Below the pieces are notes generated by a model, which did not search any database, had not been told where the DNA came from, and saw only the letters and a list, made by a program, of their open reading frames with translations. Positions 21,603 to 33,649 of a stretch of DNA of 64,000 nt are shown here, piece by piece. Origin of the DNA: a bacterium (GTDB taxonomy: Bacteria > Vulcanimicrobiota > Vulcanimicrobiia > Vulcanimicrobiales > Vulcanimicrobiaceae); NCBI GenBank assembly GCA_021790935.1, contig JAJYFL010000010.1:1-64000 (forward strand), written 5' to 3'. Position numbers and translations under genes: made by a program. Each line of letters begins with the position of its first letter. The stretch's first letter is position 1.

Positions 21603-22619
21603 GTGGCCCTGACGACCATCGATCTGACGGGGGCGGCGCTCACCGATCAGTTCAACCGGCCGATCACGTACCTGCGGATATCGGTCACGGACAAGTGCAA
21701 TCTCCGCTGCGTATACTGCATGCCGGAGCGCGGTCTGCCGTGGCTAGCCAGGTCGGAGATTCTCTCGTACGAGGAGATCGTTCGCCTGGTGCGGGCCGCG
21801 GCTTCGGTCGGCGTGAGAAGCGTGCGCCTGAGCGGCGGCGAGCCGTTGGTTCGCAAGAACCTCGAACGCCTCGTTGCCGCGATTGCCACCCTCCCGGGCA
21901 TCGAGGACGTTGCGCTCTCGACCAACGGACTGCTTCTGGAAGAGCAGATCGACGCGCTCGCCGATGCGGGACTTGCGCGCGTGAACGTCTCGCTCGACAC
22001 GCTCGACGCGAAGCGCTTCGAGACGATCGCGCGGCGTCCGGGGTTGGAGCGGGTGCTGGCGGGGATCGATGCCGCGCTCGCGCGCGGCCTCGAGCCGGTG
22101 AAGATCAACTGCGTCGTTATGCGCGGTGCCAACGACGATGAAATCGCGGCTTTCGCCGATTGGACGCGGCGGCGACGCATCTTCGTCCGTTTTATCGAGA
22201 TGATGCCCGTGCACGAAAACCTTGCCTTTCAACGCGATGCCTACGTCTCTTCGGACGAGATCCTTTCGGCGTTGCGTGCAATCGGAGATCTGCAGCCTTA
22301 CACGGGGCCGGCCGGCAACGGTCCGGCGAGATACTACGCCTTCCCGGGTGCTCCCGGCGCGATCGGCGTGATCAGTCCGCTTTCGCACGACTACTGCGAG
22401 CGCTGCAACCGCGTGCGCTTGACGGCGGACGGACGGTTGCGCCTGTGCCTTTTCGGCGATCACCATATCGATCTGCGCACGCCGCTTCGCAGCGGCGCGG
22501 GCGAAGAGGTTATCGCGGAGATGCTTCAGTCTGCCATGCTGATCAAGCCCGAGCGCCATCACCTGCAACTCGGCGAGGCCGCCTCGCGCATGCGAGCCTT
22601 CAGCGAGGTCGGCGGCTAG
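21603..22619 (+). CDS. moaA: GTP 3',8-cyclase MoaA
   Basis: 338 residues with GTG start. Radical-SAM motif CNLRCVYC near residue 32 and the second, substrate-binding 4Fe-4S cluster in YCERCNRVRLTADGRLRLCLFG. It ends in GG, which MoaA needs for activity. MoaA starts Moco synthesis by rearranging GTP to 3',8-cyclo-GTP. moaC is not present here, so the pathway must be split. The gap to the cluster upstream is 76 bases and contains a possible structured leader. Confidence 0.96.
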   Translation: MALTTIDLTGAALTDQFNRPITYLRISVTDKCNLRCVYCMPERGLPWLARSEILSYEEIVRLVRAAASVGVRSVRLSGGEPLVRKNLERLVAAIATLPGIEDVALSTNGLLLEEQIDALADAGLARVNVSLDTLDAKRFETIARRPGLERVLAGIDAALARGLEPVKINCVVMRGANDDEIAAFADWTRRRRIFVRFIEMMPVHENLAFQRDAYVSSDEILSALRAIGDLQPYTGPAGNGPARYYAFPGAPGAIGVISPLSHDYCERCNRVRLTADGRLRLCLFGDHHIDLRTPLRSGAGEEVIAEMLQSAMLIKPERHHLQLGEAASRMRAFSEVGG

Positions 22620-26597: not shown

Positions 26598-26704
26598 CCG
26601 GGGCTCCGTGCCGGGGCACGTGCGGCGGCTACCGGAGCGGGGACCGGCGACAAACGTCACAGGAGGGCGTATCCTGGCGTTAGGTTAGAAAGGGGGGCCT
26701 CAAC

Positions 26705-27226
26705 GTGGAGCAGGTCTACCTCGTCGCCACCGGGGCGTCCCAGGCGCAGGGACGCGTAGAGTCGCTGGTGCGGGAGAACCAGACGAAACTCGCACGCTAC
26801 GTCCGCCGCATGATTGGGGACCCGGATATCGCCCTGGACATCGTGCAAGACGTATTTCTCGCCGCCTACAGAACGCTGCAGCGCGAGCCCGAGCGCCCGC
26901 TGACGGCGGGGTGGCTGTACCGCTCCGCGACCAACGCCGCGATCTCACATCTGAGGAGAAGAAACGTGCTGCGATGGACGGGGCTGGATCGCGACATCGA
27001 GATGCGGGGGCTGCGCATCGATGAGCGCAGCGCGGCTTCGATCGACCTTCAAATGGCGATGGGACGATTACCCGGCGACCAGGCGGCGGCCGTTCTGCTG
27101 ACGCTCTACGCGGGGTATTCGTCGACCGAGGCGGCGGCGATGCTGGGATCGAGCGCGCAGGCCGTCCGGCAACGCGTCTGCCGAGCCGTGCGCACGCTGC
27201 GCGGTGTCATGGCGGAGCGGCCGTGA
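26705..27226 (+). CDS. ECF-type RNA polymerase sigma factor
   Basis: 173 residues with GTG start after a G-rich ribosome site (AAAGGGGGG). Sigma region 2 is about residues 22-88 (VRRMIGDPDIALDIVQDVFLAAYRTL, LYRSATNAAISHLRRR) and region 4 about 115-170 (RLPGDQAAAVLLTLYAGYSSTEAAAMLGSSAQAVRQRVCRAVRTLR). No region 1.1 or 3, as expected for ECF sigmas. It overlaps the anti-sigma gene by 4 bases, the usual arrangement of a sigma/anti-sigma switch. Confidence 0.93.
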   Translation: MEQVYLVATGASQAQGRVESLVRENQTKLARYVRRMIGDPDIALDIVQDVFLAAYRTLQREPERPLTAGWLYRSATNAAISHLRRRNVLRWTGLDRDIEMRGLRIDERSAASIDLQMAMGRLPGDQAAAVLLTLYAGYSSTEAAAMLGSSAQAVRQRVCRAVRTLRGVMAERP

Positions 27227-28242
27227 GCGCCGGTACCCATCGGCGCACGGCGGAGATTGCCGGCGCAATAGCTTTGGGCGAAGCGAGCGATTCAGAGCGG
27301 GTGGAGTATCGCGAACACCTCTCCCGGTGCACCGCGTGCTTGCAGGCCTTTGGCGGCGAGCTCGAGATCGGGCGAGCGGCGCTCCTCGTAGCCGAGGCGC
27401 GGGACGGCGAGCTGTGGGAGCCGGAGATCGGCGCGTTACCGGCGCAGCGGATCGAGCGCCACGGGCGGCTTTGGCGACTCGCGTTCGTCTCGCTGGGGGG
27501 CGCCATGGTGCTTTCGCTCGCGCTCCACGCGGCCATCGCCGCGGGCTTCGCGCGCTTCTACCCGGGGCTGGCCGCTCCCGTCGTCATCGATGCGGGCGCG
27601 ACTCGGATCGTCCTCGAACGCCGTAGCGTGCCCCCGCCGCAGGCGGCGATGCCGCTGCCGCAACGGCATCTGCTGGTCGTTCATAATGTCGTGCGCCTCT
27701 CGCAGGCACCGGCCGCCTCGGGGCGCGCCGAGAGCGTCGCACTCCAGGTCGCACGTTCTGGGCGGCAGATCGCGCGGGTCACCGTCCACCCCGATCCCGC
27801 GGCGACGAGCGCGGCTGCAAACCTGCCGATCTGGCGCCGCGACGAGTGGACCACGGTTGCCCAGACCACGACGACGTCGCTCAGCGAGACGGCGCCGCAA
27901 GCGCGCGCAAACAGTGCGGAATCGCTCCAGATCGTTCCCGCGTATCCGACGCGCGAAGCTGCGCCCATCGGCGGCGACACGGCGATCACACCCCAGCCTC
28001 CGCTGATCGCATACGACGAGGGCGCGCACGGCACGGCGGCCTTCGAGGTGCGAATAGACAAGCACGGTAAGCCCACCAAATGCATCATCACGGAGTCCTC
28101 GGGATACGAAGTCCTCGATGTCGCGGTCTGCACGGCGGCAATGAAGGCGCGCTACACGCCAAAGATGGTCGGCGGCCATGCGCGAGCCGGCATCTATCGC
28201 GATGCGTTCACGTTCCGTATGAGTGACGGTACCGCAGATTAG
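27223..28242 (+). CDS. Transmembrane anti-sigma factor fused to a TonB C-terminal domain
   Basis: 339 residues starting GTG 27223. Cytoplasmic part: anti-sigma zinc finger HxxxCxxC (H32, C36, C39). One transmembrane helix, about 84-111. A periplasmic Pro/Ala/Thr-rich linker (about 115-265) leads to a TonB C-terminal domain at about 271-339 (TAAFEVRIDKHGKPTKCIITESSG, LDVAVCTAAMKARYTP), with two Cys (287, 303) placed as in disulfide-linked TonB_C domains. So one protein joins the sigma-inhibiting module to the module that normally grips the TonB box of outer-membrane receptors. A TonB-dependent receptor follows downstream. The last 181 bases are duplicated at 33506-33649. Confidence 0.88.
   Translation: MSAGTHRRTAEIAGAIALGEASDSERVEYREHLSRCTACLQAFGGELEIGRAALLVAEARDGELWEPEIGALPAQRIERHGRLWRLAFVSLGGAMVLSLALHAAIAAGFARFYPGLAAPVVIDAGATRIVLERRSVPPPQAAMPLPQRHLLVVHNVVRLSQAPAASGRAESVALQVARSGRQIARVTVHPDPAATSAAANLPIWRRDEWTTVAQTTTTSLSETAPQARANSAESLQIVPAYPTREAAPIGGDTAITPQPPLIAYDEGAHGTAAFEVRIDKHGKPTKCIITESSGYEVLDVAVCTAAMKARYTPKMVGGHARAGIYRDAFTFRMSDGTAD
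28062..28242 (+). repeat. Direct repeat, copy 1 (3' end of anti-sigma/TonB gene)
   Basis: This 181-base segment, ending exactly at the TAG stop, recurs at 33506-33649. The copies differ by five substitutions that I can count (three are synonymous in the copy-1 frame, two change V to I and T to K) and by a 37-base gap in copy 2. The repeats bracket the cassette 28243-33505. Confidence 0.92.
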
Positions 28243-28256
28243 CCCCCAGTTCCTCA

Positions 28257-28272
28257 TGCCCCTGAAGGGGCA
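28257..28272 (+). terminator. Hairpin after the anti-sigma gene
   Basis: TGCCCC (28257-28262), loop TGAA, GGGGCA (28267-28272), 15 bases after the stop. No T-run follows, so it is at best a weak or factor-dependent terminator that separates the sigma operon from the cassette. Confidence 0.35.
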
Positions 28273-28334
28273 CCCATGGCCGGATGGAAATCACGATGGG
28301 ATCGTTAGAGCCGGCTATTTTCACAACGGGGGGA

Positions 28335-28362
28335 TTGACAATCTCCGGTTTTGCTGTACTTT
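28335..28362 (+). promoter_or_regulatory. Sigma-70-like promoter of the cassette
   Basis: Perfect TTGACA at 28335-28340, then 16 bases, then TACTTT at 28357-28362. It lies about 115 bases ahead of the six-cysteine peptide gene. Consensus-like -35 boxes are rare in this GC-rich window. Its presence suggests that the cassette brings its own housekeeping promoter in addition to any ECF control. Confidence 0.5.
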
Positions 28363-28476
28363 AAACACATCTGTGCACGGGATTGGCGCGGAGTATACAC
28401 CCCTCGTTTTCGCGGCAATCACGCCGTCCTGCCACGGACGATTTTTCCTTATCGGCTTAATGGAGGAATATCTTCC

Positions 28477-28659
28477 ATGGCTCTCCTCATTCGTGCAAAC
28501 CGTCGGCTTTCAGCCCTTGTGCTGGGCAGCGTTTTGACTATCGGGACGTTCGCTGCGTTTACGGCGTCGGCAAGTGCCTGTATAACATGCAGTGTAACGT
28601 GCAACTCAAGAGGGTGCACCTATCAGTGCACCTACACACCCGGACCGTGTCGGTTATAG
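28477..28659 (+). CDS. Small exported cysteine-rich peptide (six Cys)
   Basis: 60 residues. GGAGG at 28462-28466 supports ATG 28477. Residues 1-34 form a textbook signal peptide: basic RANRR, a hydrophobic core and an A-S-A cleavage site before C35. The mature part would be 26 residues with Cys at 35, 38, 42, 47, 51 and 58 and almost no hydrophobic core, the composition of a disulfide-stabilised or metal-binding micro-protein. A strong hairpin follows directly. First gene of the cassette, with its own promoter. It could be a secreted effector or bacteriocin, a metal scavenger, or a ligand of the downstream receptor. I recognise no family. Confidence 0.72.
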   Translation: MALLIRANRRLSALVLGSVLTIGTFAAFTASASACITCSVTCNSRGCTYQCTYTPGPCRL

Positions 28660-28680
28660 CGCTACAGCAGTAGCAGAAAT

Positions 28681-28720
28681 GGCGGTTCCCGACATCGCAC
28701 AAGAGATCGAGGGAACCGCC
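28681..28720 (+). terminator. Perfect 10-bp stem-loop after the peptide gene
   Basis: GGCGGTTCCC (28681-28690) and GGGAACCGCC (28711-28720) are exact inverted complements around a 20-base loop, 21 bases after the peptide stop. No T-run. As in other operons that begin with a small peptide gene, it may limit read-through or stabilise the peptide mRNA so that the peptide is made in excess over the downstream proteins. Confidence 0.5.
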
Positions 28721-28750
28721 CCAACTGGGCCGCGCAACGGAAGCACAGCA

Positions 28751-29392
28751 ATGAAACAGATCGCAATTCTCAGTCTCGCGCTTACGCATTTCTCAACGTC
28801 TTTGGCCGTTGGTAAACCAGCGGTGGAGGTTGATATCCCGTTGTGCGCCAAGGCAGTTTTGACGGATGTGGCGAGCATAAGTGACTTCATAAATCCGATG
28901 ACAGGACAGCCGGCACCATATCCCACAGTAATAGACCTGTGCCGGAACGCGGTCGGTCTACGATTGAAGATCACGGCGACAGAACCCGATCAAATGATTA
29001 ACGCCTCACCGATGGCAACGCCGGACCGAATCCAAAACGGCGATTACGTCGCGGTAGCGTTTACGCTTGATCCAAAAGCGACGGAATCTTATATCTTTTT
29101 TGTCGATCCGAGGGGCCAAAAAGCAGCGCTCTCTAGCGTGGATCCCCACTACAATCCGAATTGGCTCGCCAATTGCTCACACGGAAGTTCGAGTTGGTCT
29201 TGTGACCTCGTAATTCCATACGATGCATTTATCGGCGTGGACCGCGCTGTTGCGGCGCCACGCATCGCGTTCATTCGGCATATGAAACGCGAGCCAATGG
29301 GCTACTGGTACTGGCCGAATATCAGCCCGGTTAAGCCGCTTAATCCGTCATCAGAGGCGCCGATAAAGCAACTGTTTCCAGGATCACGCTAG
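28751..29392 (+). CDS. Exported CBM9-like beta-sandwich protein
   Basis: About 213 residues from ATG 28751 (GGAAG seven bases upstream, signal peptide MKQIAILSLALTHFSTSLAVG). An earlier in-frame ATG at 28679 would place the hairpin inside the gene and is less likely. The segment GDYVAVAFTLDPKATESYIFFVDPRGQKA ... DPHYNPNWLANC ... WSCDLVIPYDAF follows the pattern of family-9 carbohydrate-binding/DOMON-like modules found at the N-terminus of outer-membrane DUF5916 proteins. It carries several Cys. It may bind a sugar or other ligand for the receptor. The function is inferred from the fold only. Confidence 0.6.
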   Translation: MKQIAILSLALTHFSTSLAVGKPAVEVDIPLCAKAVLTDVASISDFINPMTGQPAPYPTVIDLCRNAVGLRLKITATEPDQMINASPMATPDRIQNGDYVAVAFTLDPKATESYIFFVDPRGQKAALSSVDPHYNPNWLANCSHGSSSWSCDLVIPYDAFIGVDRAVAAPRIAFIRHMKREPMGYWYWPNISPVKPLNPSSEAPIKQLFPGSR

Positions 29393-29406
29393 GGAGACGT
29401 TTTCAT

Positions 29407-30249
29407 ATGCAAATGAAGGCCGGTGTCCTTTTGTTCCTAGTCAGCTTGACCGCTGCATGTAGCAACGCAGCGCAGCCAACAAGCAAGACTTTCAATCTCC
29501 GAGGCAGCGATGCGCCACAGGGAATCACGGTACCATCGCCAGCGCCGCGCGCAGTGAACTTGGTTTCCGCATCTTGGTCGGCTGCGCGTGGATCTCGATG
29601 GACGCATGTGCGTGCCGCAAGCGGGAACGAGGTAGCCGAGTTCTACGTCCACCGGGGTCAGGTGTACGAGCTCCGCGGTGCGACCAGCGTCGCCTACGAG
29701 CGCCCATTTCACTATCTCGTAACATCAGCTCCCGAGACCGCGCGAATCGTGCTACGCCACGTCGATTCGCCAAATACGACCATGATCCGGAGTGCGCCAG
29801 ACTCTGGATTGGCTGTTGTACACACGAACATTCGAAAGCCTTCAAGCCTTCTCGAGTTCACGTACGACAGAGGCGGTGCCGTTTATGTGCTAACCGATAC
29901 GTCCGGACCAAAACTCGTCGACATTTACGAACACGACTGCTTCGCGTGCACCTTCGAGAGCTCGGCGCTGGTTGCAACGGCGCAGAAGGTTCACAGAGCG
30001 GGCGGGCAGACCTTCATGATCTCTTCCGATGGCTTGCCCGTCCTCCAGCGTGACCTAGCGCGTTGGAACGGCGGCACTATTATAATACCCGTCCAAGATT
30101 ACCGGCTGTCAATATACTCGGTCGTCGGAGTCCATACTCTTCCACTCAACTATTTCATCCAGCGTAATAATCGCATAGCGGATGCCGAGTCCGGTAGTCT
30201 CCTGCCCAATTGGATCGAGCACGATCTGAAAGCTGTGGCCGTCCGCTAA
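29407..30249 (+). CDS. Probable lipoprotein of unknown function
   Basis: 280 residues, ATG 29407 preceded by an AGGGAG site. The signal segment ends SLTAAC (C18), a tolerable lipobox. The remainder has no match I recognise. It contains regularly spaced beta-type segments (EVAEFYVHRGQVYELRG, GAVYVLTDTSGPKLVDIYEHD) and a CFAC pair near residue 180. It ends directly before the receptor gene (GTG 30250), so the two are coupled. It may be a surface or periplasmic accessory lipoprotein of the receptor. Base composition is AT-richer than the flanking chromosome. Confidence 0.6.
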   Translation: MQMKAGVLLFLVSLTAACSNAAQPTSKTFNLRGSDAPQGITVPSPAPRAVNLVSASWSAARGSRWTHVRAASGNEVAEFYVHRGQVYELRGATSVAYERPFHYLVTSAPETARIVLRHVDSPNTTMIRSAPDSGLAVVHTNIRKPSSLLEFTYDRGGAVYVLTDTSGPKLVDIYEHDCFACTFESSALVATAQKVHRAGGQTFMISSDGLPVLQRDLARWNGGTIIIPVQDYRLSIYSVVGVHTLPLNYFIQRNNRIADAESGSLLPNWIEHDLKAVAVR

Positions 30250-33200
30250 GTGGGGTCGCGACGTTCATTTGTGAGATTACGTCGTTCATTCACATGGGTT
30301 GCAGTGATGCTCGTGACGTTGCTCACGTGCTCACCGTGCGGTAGCGCGCTTGCTCGGGCGACCAGCTCGTTACAGATTCTAGTAATCGACGGCATCACCA
30401 AAACGCCGCTGCCACTTGTAAATGTATCCATAATAGGGCCCACCGTCCGCATCGGGTTCACCGACGAGCATGGTGTCGCACACTTCGATAACGTGCCCCC
30501 TGGAAGTTACACTGTACGCCTCGCAAAGGCGAAATACAAACCATCAACCCTTCCAAATCTAACGATCGCCGCAGCCGAGGACTCGGCGGTGACAATGTCC
30601 ATGAGCCGGATCCTAAGAACCATCGGCGCTGTTACGGTAAAAGCTACCCCGAGGCTCGGCGGCTCACACATTGGAACCAATAGCCCTGAAAGAATCGCGT
30701 CCGGATCATTGGCGTCTGCACTTGGCCTCAACCCCTTTGTAGACGTTTCGGCCGGCGTGGGAAACGCGCAAAATGCGTCGATCGAGGGGCATTCGGCCGG
30801 TACAACGGCCGTTCTTGTCGATGGTGCCCCCGCAGCTCCATTGGGGAGCCCAGCAAATCTTCGCAGCCTCAGCACCGACTTGTTTGACGCAGTCAACATT
30901 TCAACAGACGTTACGGGATCGGGCGGTGGTGCACTTGACTTTCACATCCCAGATCCGACGTTGGCTCCGTCGTACTCCTTTGCGGGCAGCTACGGCACAT
31001 ACGATAGAAGCCGCGACGCCTTTCTGCTCCGGGGAACTGCAGGGCGGTTGGGATACTCGGTAGGCGATGGTACTACCGGTTACAACGACGTTTTGAATGG
31101 CAAGTACTATCTGGATACGAGCGGGCTCGATTACTTTCACGACGCGTCAACTATTGCCCGAACGCTCACGCTGAAGCTAAGATATCCGCTGGCAGAAAGC
31201 AACGTTCTATTCGGCGAGATCTTGGCGTCGAATAGCCTCAGCGCTGACTACTGCCGGCAGTTCTCGGCGCGTGTGCCCTGCGGATATGGGCCGGGCAACT
31301 ATACTTCCGAGTCGCTGCGGACGGTGCAGGTGCGTGACGCGGCTACGCTCGGCTGGACGTCCTTGAACGTACAATTGTTTGCTACGAACGAAATGGTCAA
31401 TGATGATCAGCGAAAGCGCTTCGTAAATGGTTTACCGAGTTCACTGAACGCGGCGTTTGCGGCACGCACTGACGGCGTTTCCATCTCAATGTCGTCGCCG
31501 CTCGGAACAGGCAACAGTCTCAATGCAAGCATTCTTAGCGAAGGAACCACTTATTCGGGGAATGCGATTGCTGGAACGCTGTCCGCAAGCATGCCATCGC
31601 AGCGTCTTGCGTTTGGGACGGCGGATATCGGGGCCACGGTGAGGTTTTCTCCCAAGACCACCGTTTCGCTGCAGGGCGGCCTATCGACCGAGAGCGGCGC
31701 CAGCTCGATGCCGAATGGCGCCGTGTCCATTATCTGGAACCCGACGGTGAACGATAGAGTCGTGGGTCTCTATACCGCCGGCAACATGCAGGTGCCCCCC
31801 ATAGCATCGAACGGCATTTCCGAACCCCAATCGCTAGAGTTCGAGTGTGCAGCTAGAGAAGCATTTGGGTATGGACCCGGCTTGACGGCTCACTCGGGAG
31901 ATTCTTCAACGGCGCGCCTATCGTGGCTGCATCGATTTGCCGATGCGCAAGTACTTGTTTCCCTTCATCGCCAGGTCGTCCACGATGATGTCATTGAAGC
32001 ATACGAGAATGGTTCGGCATTTAGCAGCAGTTTCTTTCCGCTGAACTACTTTCAAACGGCATCCGCTCTATACGCTTCTCCACTACAGTGTGGCGAAGGC
32101 AGAAGTCTTGGCCCCAGCGACATCTATTACCTTACGCCGGTAGCGGCAACGACCCAATACGAAGGCGGCAGCGTTCTCACGAAGGTCCCTTTAGGGCATG
32201 CCCTGATCGCAATGCCGTATTATGTCACGACCGTAGCGAAACCAACCGTCGTGATATCTCCCACGAGTTCGAGATTGGGTCTCATAGTCGGCAGCCAGAT
32301 ACCGAACGTGCCACTGCATAAATACGGTATGACGCTGGATTGGAAGGTGCCGCGGTCACCGCTAGAAGCGGTATTGAACATTACCCACGTTGCAACGAAC
32401 AATGCGAACAATCTCCCAGCATACACGCTCTTTAATGCTGGAGCCCTTTTGCAATTGCAGCGAGGCGAATTGATTGTCTCAGCAACAAACTTGTTCAATC
32501 AGTTTGCTGGACTCTACGTTTCACCTGAGAACGCCGTTGCGATAATTACGAACAGCGGGGCATCGATCCCAGTACTCGCGACGCCCTTGAACCCCAGATC
32601 GTTTCGGGTGGAATATCGTGTTCGCATCGGCAAGCCAGAGTCCCGCCCGGTATCATCCGGGTTGGAGAGTGAGCTCGGCGCGCCGACCTCAACAACGTTT
32701 GCCCTAAAGCCTTTCCCCTCAGAGCCGCCGAATGATGCGTTCGATATCGCCACCGACAATCCAGCGTGCGGTCCCGAAAGCGTCGGCCCGGCAAAGAAGC
32801 TTTTGGATGCCTTGAAAGCGTATGTCTCTGCAAACAGCTTTGTCGACTTAAAGATTCTCCCCTATGGAGTGAACGTCCGCCGTCACCTCACTCCAGCCGG
32901 TTATGTCCTGCTTATTGGCGGCGGCGAGAAGCGCGCCATGACCGCGCTCTTCGCGTGCGGCATTATACATGGTGGCTCAGACAACGACGTGCGGATGCAT
33001 GGCCTCTATATACCGACGATCGATGAATCGCGGCACTACGACCTGTTGTTCGATCCTCGCGTGGGGCTATACGTTACCAATTTGTTCGCTCCGAAGCCGG
33101 TCCATCTCACGCTGCGCGCACTTCCAAAGGCCCCACCGTCCAATCCATTCGCTTTGACGCCAGGTGCCGCATGTCCGTCGGAAGTGAGAGGTGCTGCTCA

Positions 33201-33474
33201 GCTTACGCTGGATTCGCTGAAGCGCTACTTCTCAGATGTCGCTCCAGGGCAAAGCCGCTCATCTCCGCAAGGGATCACAATCGTCGAACACCATGATCCA
33301 AATGCATGGTTCGAGATACGATTCGAAGATCCACAGCTTTCGATCGCGCTACTGCAATGCGGCATGATCGCCGGCGGCACATTAGACGAGATACGGAAAT
33401 TCGGCGTATCTGGTGTTCGTGTTCCGGAACTCGGATACGCAGCGAGGCTCGGACTATATGTGCGTAGCGACTAA
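30250..33474 (+). CDS. TonB-dependent outer-membrane receptor with duplicated C-terminal extension
   Basis: 1074 residues (GTG 30250; GTG 30271 is an alternative). Signal sequence, then a carboxypeptidase-regulatory-like beta domain (about 38-115; GFTDEHGVAHFDNVPPGSYTV). A plug domain follows (about 122-237; ASIEGHSAGTTAVLVDGAPAAP, LFDAVNISTD), then a barrel to about 798 that ends in FRVEYRVRIG. Unusually, two further units follow the barrel, about 822-937 and 957-1074. They share F-x-(about 9)-ACxxE, LDxLKxY, an ALxxCGxIxGG motif and a GLYV end, so they are tandem copies, each with two conserved Cys. FecA-type N-terminal signalling domain is absent. Sits in the cassette behind the ECF/anti-sigma-TonB pair. 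Confidence 0.82.
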   Translation: MGSRRSFVRLRRSFTWVAVMLVTLLTCSPCGSALARATSSLQILVIDGITKTPLPLVNVSIIGPTVRIGFTDEHGVAHFDNVPPGSYTVRLAKAKYKPSTLPNLTIAAAEDSAVTMSMSRILRTIGAVTVKATPRLGGSHIGTNSPERIASGSLASALGLNPFVDVSAGVGNAQNASIEGHSAGTTAVLVDGAPAAPLGSPANLRSLSTDLFDAVNISTDVTGSGGGALDFHIPDPTLAPSYSFAGSYGTYDRSRDAFLLRGTAGRLGYSVGDGTTGYNDVLNGKYYLDTSGLDYFHDASTIARTLTLKLRYPLAESNVLFGEILASNSLSADYCRQFSARVPCGYGPGNYTSESLRTVQVRDAATLGWTSLNVQLFATNEMVNDDQRKRFVNGLPSSLNAAFAARTDGVSISMSSPLGTGNSLNASILSEGTTYSGNAIAGTLSASMPSQRLAFGTADIGATVRFSPKTTVSLQGGLSTESGASSMPNGAVSIIWNPTVNDRVVGLYTAGNMQVPPIASNGISEPQSLEFECAAREAFGYGPGLTAHSGDSSTARLSWLHRFADAQVLVSLHRQVVHDDVIEAYENGSAFSSSFFPLNYFQTASALYASPLQCGEGRSLGPSDIYYLTPVAATTQYEGGSVLTKVPLGHALIAMPYYVTTVAKPTVVISPTSSRLGLIVGSQIPNVPLHKYGMTLDWKVPRSPLEAVLNITHVATNNANNLPAYTLFNAGALLQLQRGELIVSATNLFNQFAGLYVSPENAVAIITNSGASIPVLATPLNPRSFRVEYRVRIGKPESRPVSSGLESELGAPTSTTFALKPFPSEPPNDAFDIATDNPACGPESVGPAKKLLDALKAYVSANSFVDLKILPYGVNVRRHLTPAGYVLLIGGGEKRAMTALFACGIIHGGSDNDVRMHGLYIPTIDESRHYDLLFDPRVGLYVTNLFAPKPVHLTLRALPKAPPSNPFALTPGAACPSEVRGAAQLTLDSLKRYFSDVAPGQSRSSPQGITIVEHHDPNAWFEIRFEDPQLSIALLQCGMIAGGTLDEIRKFGVSGVRVPELGYAARLGLYVRSD

Positions 33475-33486
33475 CGTTCATTCCGT

Positions 33487-33500
33487 AGGTTGCGGGGAAC
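33487..33500 (+). repeat. Partial match to the intergenic TIR element at the cassette edge
   Basis: The bases AGGTTGCGGGGAAC match the inner part of the terminal inverted repeat found at 57160-57324 (AGGTTGCGGGAAAA in its right arm). It lies between the receptor stop and the second repeat copy. The match is short, so chance is possible. Confidence 0.3.
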
Positions 33501-33505
33501 GGCAT

Positions 33506-33649
33506 GCACGGTAAGCCCACCAAATGCATCATCACGGAGTCCTCGGGATACGAAGTCCTCGATATCGCGGTCTGCAAGGCGGCCATGCGCGAGCCGGCAT
33601 CTACCGCGACGCGTTCACGTTCCGAATGAGTGACGGTACCGCAGATTAG
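33506..33649 (+). pseudogene. Truncated, frameshifted copy of the anti-sigma/TonB 3' end
   Basis: A second copy of 28062-28242. It begins in the middle of the TonB_C domain (HGKPTKCIITESSG) without any upstream part or start. It has lost 37 bases between two GGCGG pentamers, which shifts the frame after AVCKAAM. It still ends with the same stop codon region. It can only be a remnant. The mostly synonymous differences show that it diverged as a coding sequence before decay, so it comes from a related allele or paralogue and not from a fresh duplication. Confidence 0.9.

Follow-up and report, generated by a model that had tools for sequence, protein, structure and literature searches.

The window, by which is meant the whole stretch of 64,000 nucleotides that was analysed, carries on its forward strand a gene for an ECF sigma factor of 173 aa (positions 26705–27226; Pfam Sigma70_r2, 3.1e-14, and Sigma70_r4_2, 1.2e-10) and, from a GTG start that overlaps the stop of the sigma gene by 4 nt, a gene for a 339 aa protein (P0001; 27223–28242) in which a zinc anti-sigma domain is followed by a transmembrane (TM) helix, a spacer and a TonB C-terminal domain (TonB_C). 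The coordinates, frame and sigma overlap given for this fusion gene in the original prediction were correct. A promoter-like element, GTCAC-N17-CGTT (26656–26681, forward strand), stands before the sigma gene and is predicted to be an autoregulated ECF promoter. Downstream of the fusion gene lies an inserted cassette of low GC (28243–33502) with genes for a Cys-rich secreted peptide, two secreted proteins and a TonB-dependent receptor of 1074 aa (30250–33474, forward strand), and at its right edge the insertion is marked by a second copy of the fusion gene's 3' end, which has an internal deletion (33503–33649, forward strand).

The proposal that an anti-sigma finger and a TonB_C domain are joined in one membrane protein was borne out, and the fusion is real, with a true TonB C-terminal domain. 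This periplasmic domain (residues about 255–335, 27985–28227) matches the Pfam TonB_C model at residues 260–332 (E 1.1e-12, 48.7 bits against a cut-off of 24.6) and TIGR01352 (E 1.5e-9), and TonB_C is found by Pfam in all 18 orthologues of the same layout. The cytoplasmic zinc domain (residues 1–66, 27223–27420) is weaker by profile, with zf-HC2 at residues 17–39 scoring 16.8 bits against the Pfam cut-off of 22.2; of the two models expected to match, only TonB_C therefore lies above its cut-off in the window's protein. Among orthologues, zf-HC2 is recovered at E<=0.05 in 17 of the 18 fused proteins and in all seven that lack TonB_C. The three predicted zinc ligands, H32, C36 and C39, held up, and the set was incomplete: H6 is the likely fourth ligand, and the pattern [H/C]6-H32-C36-C39 (H/C-x24-26-H-x3-C-x2-C) is kept in 25 of 25 aligned orthologues, including the seven without TonB_C. 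AlphaFold, run with an 18-row alignment, gives a confident anti-sigma part (residues 1–63) and a confident TonB part (about 241–335; pLDDT about 88 for the C-terminal domain), joined by the TM helix and a disordered spacer. The top structural matches in Foldseek are TonB C-terminal domains, the best being FoxA-bound TonB (6i97_D, TMt 0.82, prob 1.00), and the anti-sigma factor RslA is a weak match for the N-terminal part. Two cysteines of the TonB_C domain, C287 and C303, are conserved. A profile search of the 18 fused members gave no match to the FecR family.

The TM helix (residues about 86–110, 27478–27552) contains S98-xxx-H102 as in TonB, where association with ExbB depends on S16 and H20 of SHLS (PMC8928145). 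Only these two members of the SHLS set are present in the window's fusion, with F109 and Y113 at the positions of the L and the second S. Among the fused orthologues SxxxH occurs in 12 of 18, one more has SxxxN and five have neither, and it is absent from all seven TonB_C-less orthologues, which mostly have SxxxN. According to the title of Swayne and Postle 2011, as cited in PMC8928145, Asn fully replaces His20 of TonB. Profile comparison relates the TM region of the fusion to that of a family of small TonB-like proteins that belongs to the predicted regulon (E 2e-5). Given the five orthologues without SxxxH and the partial SHLS set seen here, coupling to ExbB cannot be a general property of the fusion.

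The sigma gene is single copy and occurs in 27 of 37 genomes of the family, and was not found outside the family at E<=1e-15; the hosts of the fusion are some uncultured Eremiobacterota. In all orthologous loci read, the sigma gene lies directly upstream of an anti-sigma gene, which takes one of two forms, with TonB_C (18 genomes) or without it (7 confidently read). Trees of the sigma factor and of the flanking genes place the fused and the TonB_C-less forms as sister clades at one conserved locus, and the order queG - (lolA-like) - moaA - sigma - fusion - (GNAT) - phrB - ABC is kept in about 20 further genomes. In the window's genus moaA (21603–22619) stands about 5 kb upstream of the sigma gene, a small local rearrangement, and it is directly upstream in nearly all relatives. 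In one set of Eremiobacterota relatives (L095–L101) the anti-sigma protein has a truncated TonB_C and a short spacer and lacks SxxxH, the domain being apparently in decay or put to another use; with such a spacer and domain a receptor would hardly be reachable. These relatives, together with the fused orthologues that lack SxxxH, speak against a coupling that is strictly mechanical, and could reflect either passive sensing or decay.

Upstream of the sigma gene GTCAC and CGTT are invariant in 26 of 26 orthologous loci, with a spacer of 17 nt in 24 and 16 nt in two, and every further locus with the sigma factor has GTCAC-N16/17-CGTT as well. The motif resembles the characterised ECF41 promoter, which has a -35 element of TGTCACA, a -10 element of CGTC and a spacer of 16 +/- 1 (PMC3426412). 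The regulon was sought by scanning three genomes (G000, G036 and G026) for GTCACR-N16-CGTT and keeping only sites common to several genomes, which yielded three targets and the promoter of the sigma operon itself. The 22 matches of a scan of G000 alone are mostly coding and probably due to chance, and two shared pairs of sites (G000:C9:125571 with G036:C73:55929, and G000:C4:80620 with G031:C29:26986) were rejected as coding conservation or unsupported. The motif also occurs at a LytR-like gene in two genomes (G026 and G011).

The first target is the operon exbB-exbD-exbD-tonB-tonB, which is preceded by a gene for a periplasmic TPR protein with an N-terminal TonB_C-like domain (G000:C11:102482-103813); the motif lies inside this gene, 268 bases before its stop, as a predicted internal promoter. 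The second is a small TonB-like gene whose product has a TM helix with SxxxH, a proline-rich spacer and a C-terminal domain; the protein has no TonB match in Pfam or NCBIfam, and a fold search with its model did match, TonB domains first. The exb motif is intact in 15 of 16 fusion genomes (G008 has the fusion without it), in none of nine short-form genomes and in none of 12 without the sigma factor, and the TonB-like gene is present in 18 of 18 fused, three of five sigma-loss and none of nine short-form genomes, counts that overstate independence because TonB_C, the exb motif and the TonB-like gene may each represent a single event on one branch. Before the TonB-like gene the motif is found, in a constant position, in 14 of 18 fused genomes (nine exact, five with one mismatch; missing in four) and in none of the three sigma-less genomes; the exact copies lie 14–32 bases before the start, and the background of an exact match is <0.01 per 280 bases. 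The third target, a gene for a secreted DUF4139 protein, is absent from G000 and carries an exact motif in all six fused genomes that have the gene, in one of five short-form genomes and in none of nine that lack the sigma factor.

Since the sigma factor paired with a TonB-shaped anti-sigma is predicted to switch on the genes of the TonB motor, the motor may report its own workload. The reading that we favour, the simplest one, and regard as probable though far from assured, is a homeostatic loop in which the pair monitors the status of the TonB system and controls the supply of TonB-ExbBD. The zinc domain would hold the sigma factor at the cytoplasmic side of the membrane, and the fusion would sample the state of the TonB system, its TonB_C domain engaging the TonB boxes of receptors and, where SxxxH is present, the protein also contacting ExbB-ExbD. 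With more receptors engaged, or with ExbB-ExbD scarce, the state of the fusion would change and the sigma factor would be freed; both the sensing step and its direction are proposals. In the window's organism freed sigma factor would then transcribe its own operon, the exb operon from the promoter within the TPR gene and the small TonB-like gene, with the DUF4139 gene as a further predicted target in several relatives, so that the supply of the motor is raised. If this is right, the system would sense the overall load on outer-membrane uptake, with a TonB-like sensor and the TonB motor as its predicted output, and would offer an accessible route to how cells match the number of motors with the number of receptors.

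How the domain would do this is less secure. It is possible, but on present evidence rather unlikely, that the fusion is a working TonB that docks to ExbB-ExbD and pulls occupied receptors, so that the pull, or competition for ExbB-ExbD, frees the sigma factor and leads to more ExbB, ExbD and TonB. Were this the case, the quantity sensed would be the total load on the uptake motor and not one ligand, and no dedicated signalling receptor would be involved.

We regard as rather unlikely the idea that TonB_C is a periplasmic sensor that has ceased to be a TonB, binding a ligand, a partner protein or the cell wall and gating proteolysis of the anti-sigma factor; control of the TonB operon by the sigma factor would then belong to a response to the envelope or to nutrients. 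The loss of SxxxH from five fused orthologues agrees with it, as do the truncated domains of L095–L101, the conserved C287 and C303 and the presence in the same genome of a BlaR1-like M56 protein with a TonB_C domain beside a BlaI-type repressor gene. Set against these points are the complete TonB fold, with receptor-bound TonB as its best match, the conservation of SxxxH across most of the fused proteins when no TonB_C-less one has it, and the fact that the predicted targets are the TonB motor itself.

Very unlikely, in turn, is the explanation that the fusion serves mainly as an auxiliary TonB that energises receptors, its N-terminal domain only setting sigma levels or acting as a tether without any signalling. 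The TonB-type TM helix, the long spacer, the TonB_C domain and the ExbB and ExbD encoded in the genome would all be expected of such a protein, but the short-form orthologues retain the anti-sigma part alone at the same locus, the zinc ligands are kept more strictly than SxxxH, and the genome encodes other complete TonBs.

The link from the sigma factor to exbB-exbD-exbD-tonB-tonB is, as a sequence-based prediction, well supported, and the strongest independent arguments for the regulon come from nested losses of the sigma factor and from codon constraint. Five genomes without the sigma factor (G012, G013, G020, G025 and G028) are nested within the fused clade with support of 1.0 in a tree of the TPR, ExbB and ExbD proteins, and none of them has the exb motif (Fisher p 3e-4, relatedness ignored). 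One of them, G025, still encodes the residues VTAYTQAAF with codons that break the motif. Two codon-specific columns of the motif rank first and second for synonymous constraint among the 230 testable columns of the TPR gene, and of all 5+17+4 windows in the gene none is as well conserved as GTCAC..CGTT (13 of 14 genera, against 8 of 14 for the next). Leu at the site is written TTA or TTG in all four genomes that have Leu there. Although the exb site does lie inside a coding frame, it is thus highly improbable that the motif is a coding coincidence and that the sigma factor regulates only itself, as none of 20,000 synonymous resamplings reached the observed count (at most 6 of 14 genera), the motif has been lost along with the sigma factor in the five nested genomes, and the same motif is found at two further target sites that are non-coding.

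The neighbouring receptor (30250–33474) matches CarboxypepD_reg (5e-10) and, below the cut-off, Plug (5e-4), and a profile search found no STN domain in it, in agreement with the original prediction that it lacks a FecA-type signalling domain. The further proposal that the fusion reads the occupancy of this receptor did not survive examination of the locus. The cassette that contains the receptor, 5.3 kb between the fusion gene and GNAT, has a GC content of about 0.55 compared with 0.67–0.72 outside, recovering past the second copy of a repeat: the last 180 bases of the fusion gene recur directly 3' of the receptor, minus a short internal stretch. This remnant (33503–33649) is 95–96% identical to 28059–28143 and 28171–28242 and is contiguous with the GNAT flank, as at the empty site. 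Such an empty site is seen in G001, of the same genus, where GNAT directly follows the fusion gene. In G002, also of the same genus, one contig runs from the end of the receptor gene through the remnant into GNAT, and a second has GNAT after the fusion gene, so that either the cassette is polymorphic or the MAG is mixed.

Apart from this trace in G002, the cassette is absent from the locus in G001 and in all more distant relatives, and it is not ancestral. To the question of how often the pair adjoins a receptor, the answer is that relatives keep sigma and fusion without one, the filled allele being confined to the window and G002; none of 34 named Eremiobacterota loci carrying the sigma/anti-sigma pair has this receptor, and the gene order conserved in about 20 further genomes, with which these loci agree, leaves no room for a receptor. 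The motif scan found no copy of the sigma promoter motif in the cassette or before the receptor. Relatives of the receptor family at 27–33% occur elsewhere in many of the compared genomes, and the genome of the window has about 10 receptors in all. The sigma-fusion-receptor neighbourhood is therefore misleading, its adjacency recent and probably fortuitous. That the receptor partners the anti-sigma factor and reports its occupancy through its own TonB box is accordingly most improbable: it would fit the adjacency seen in the window and, for G002, in its filled allele, a receptor with Plug and without STN, and a modelled TonB_C fold that appears suited to TonB-box binding, but the low-GC insertion, the duplicated end of the fusion gene, the empty site in G001, the absence from more distant relatives and the lack of a motif in the cassette count against this receptor as the fusion's partner. 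Contact between the anti-sigma factor and TonB-dependent receptors through the TonB domain is possible; the evidence links it to the cell's TonB-ExbBD system as a whole, not to any single receptor. The receptor has an apparent C-terminal extension of about 250 aa past the likely end of the barrel, and two similar units close the protein. At the head of the cassette, the small secreted Cys-rich peptide (28477–28659) consists of a signal peptide and then ACITCSVTCNSRGCTYQCTYTPGPCRL, and is possibly a modified peptide or the ligand of the receptor.

What is understood of TonB-dependent signalling comes, to our knowledge, only from receptors with a special signalling domain. The FecI-FecR-FecA, PupI-PupR-PupB and HasI-HasS-HasR systems also require TonB-ExbB-ExbD for signalling (reviewed in PMC9249621). 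The present system shares with FecI-FecR-FecA an ECF sigma factor, a single-pass anti-sigma factor with a periplasmic sensor and a connection to TonB-dependent uptake, but it has no FecR domain, STN receptor or conserved adjacent receptor, its sensor is a TonB domain, and its predicted targets include the general exbBD-tonB operon. A logic apart from that of FecI-FecR-FecA had been anticipated, and the FecR/STN scheme was rejected for the fusion for lack of domain matches. With the ZAS factors RsrA, RslA and ChrR the fusion has in common H-x3-C-x2-C with an upstream H/C ligand and the overlap with an ECF sigma gene, but differs in an outer part made of a TonB-type TM helix and TonB_C. It resembles E. 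coli TonB and HasB in topology, C-terminal fold and the S and H of SHLS; unlike them, it has a cytoplasmic N-terminal anti-sigma domain, lacks the L and second S of SHLS, and does not have SxxxH in all members. Serratia has in HasB a dedicated TonB paralogue, encoded in a locus that has its own sigma and anti-sigma factors (PMC9008036). In PUMA3/VreA of Pseudomonas aeruginosa a TolA/TonB-like domain also takes part in ECF surface signalling, but the model puts it on a small protein of its own that resembles a receptor and bears a signalling domain (PMC2729926), whereas here the TonB domain is on the anti-sigma factor itself.

No anti-sigma/TonB_C fusion, and no TonB-shaped anti-sigma factor whose sigma factor targets the general TonB motor, was found in the literature searched, which is weak evidence given thin coverage of subscription papers, and a search for similar fusions on plasmids gave only a match of TonB_C length in Vibrio. 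Within the genome of the fusion, the BlaR1-like M56 protein (G000:C18; L005, L007), which ends in TonB_C and is encoded beside the BlaI/MecI-type repressor gene, is likewise a signalling protein of the membrane whose periplasmic end is TonB_C, but it signals by protease and BlaI repressor and not through a sigma/anti-sigma pair.
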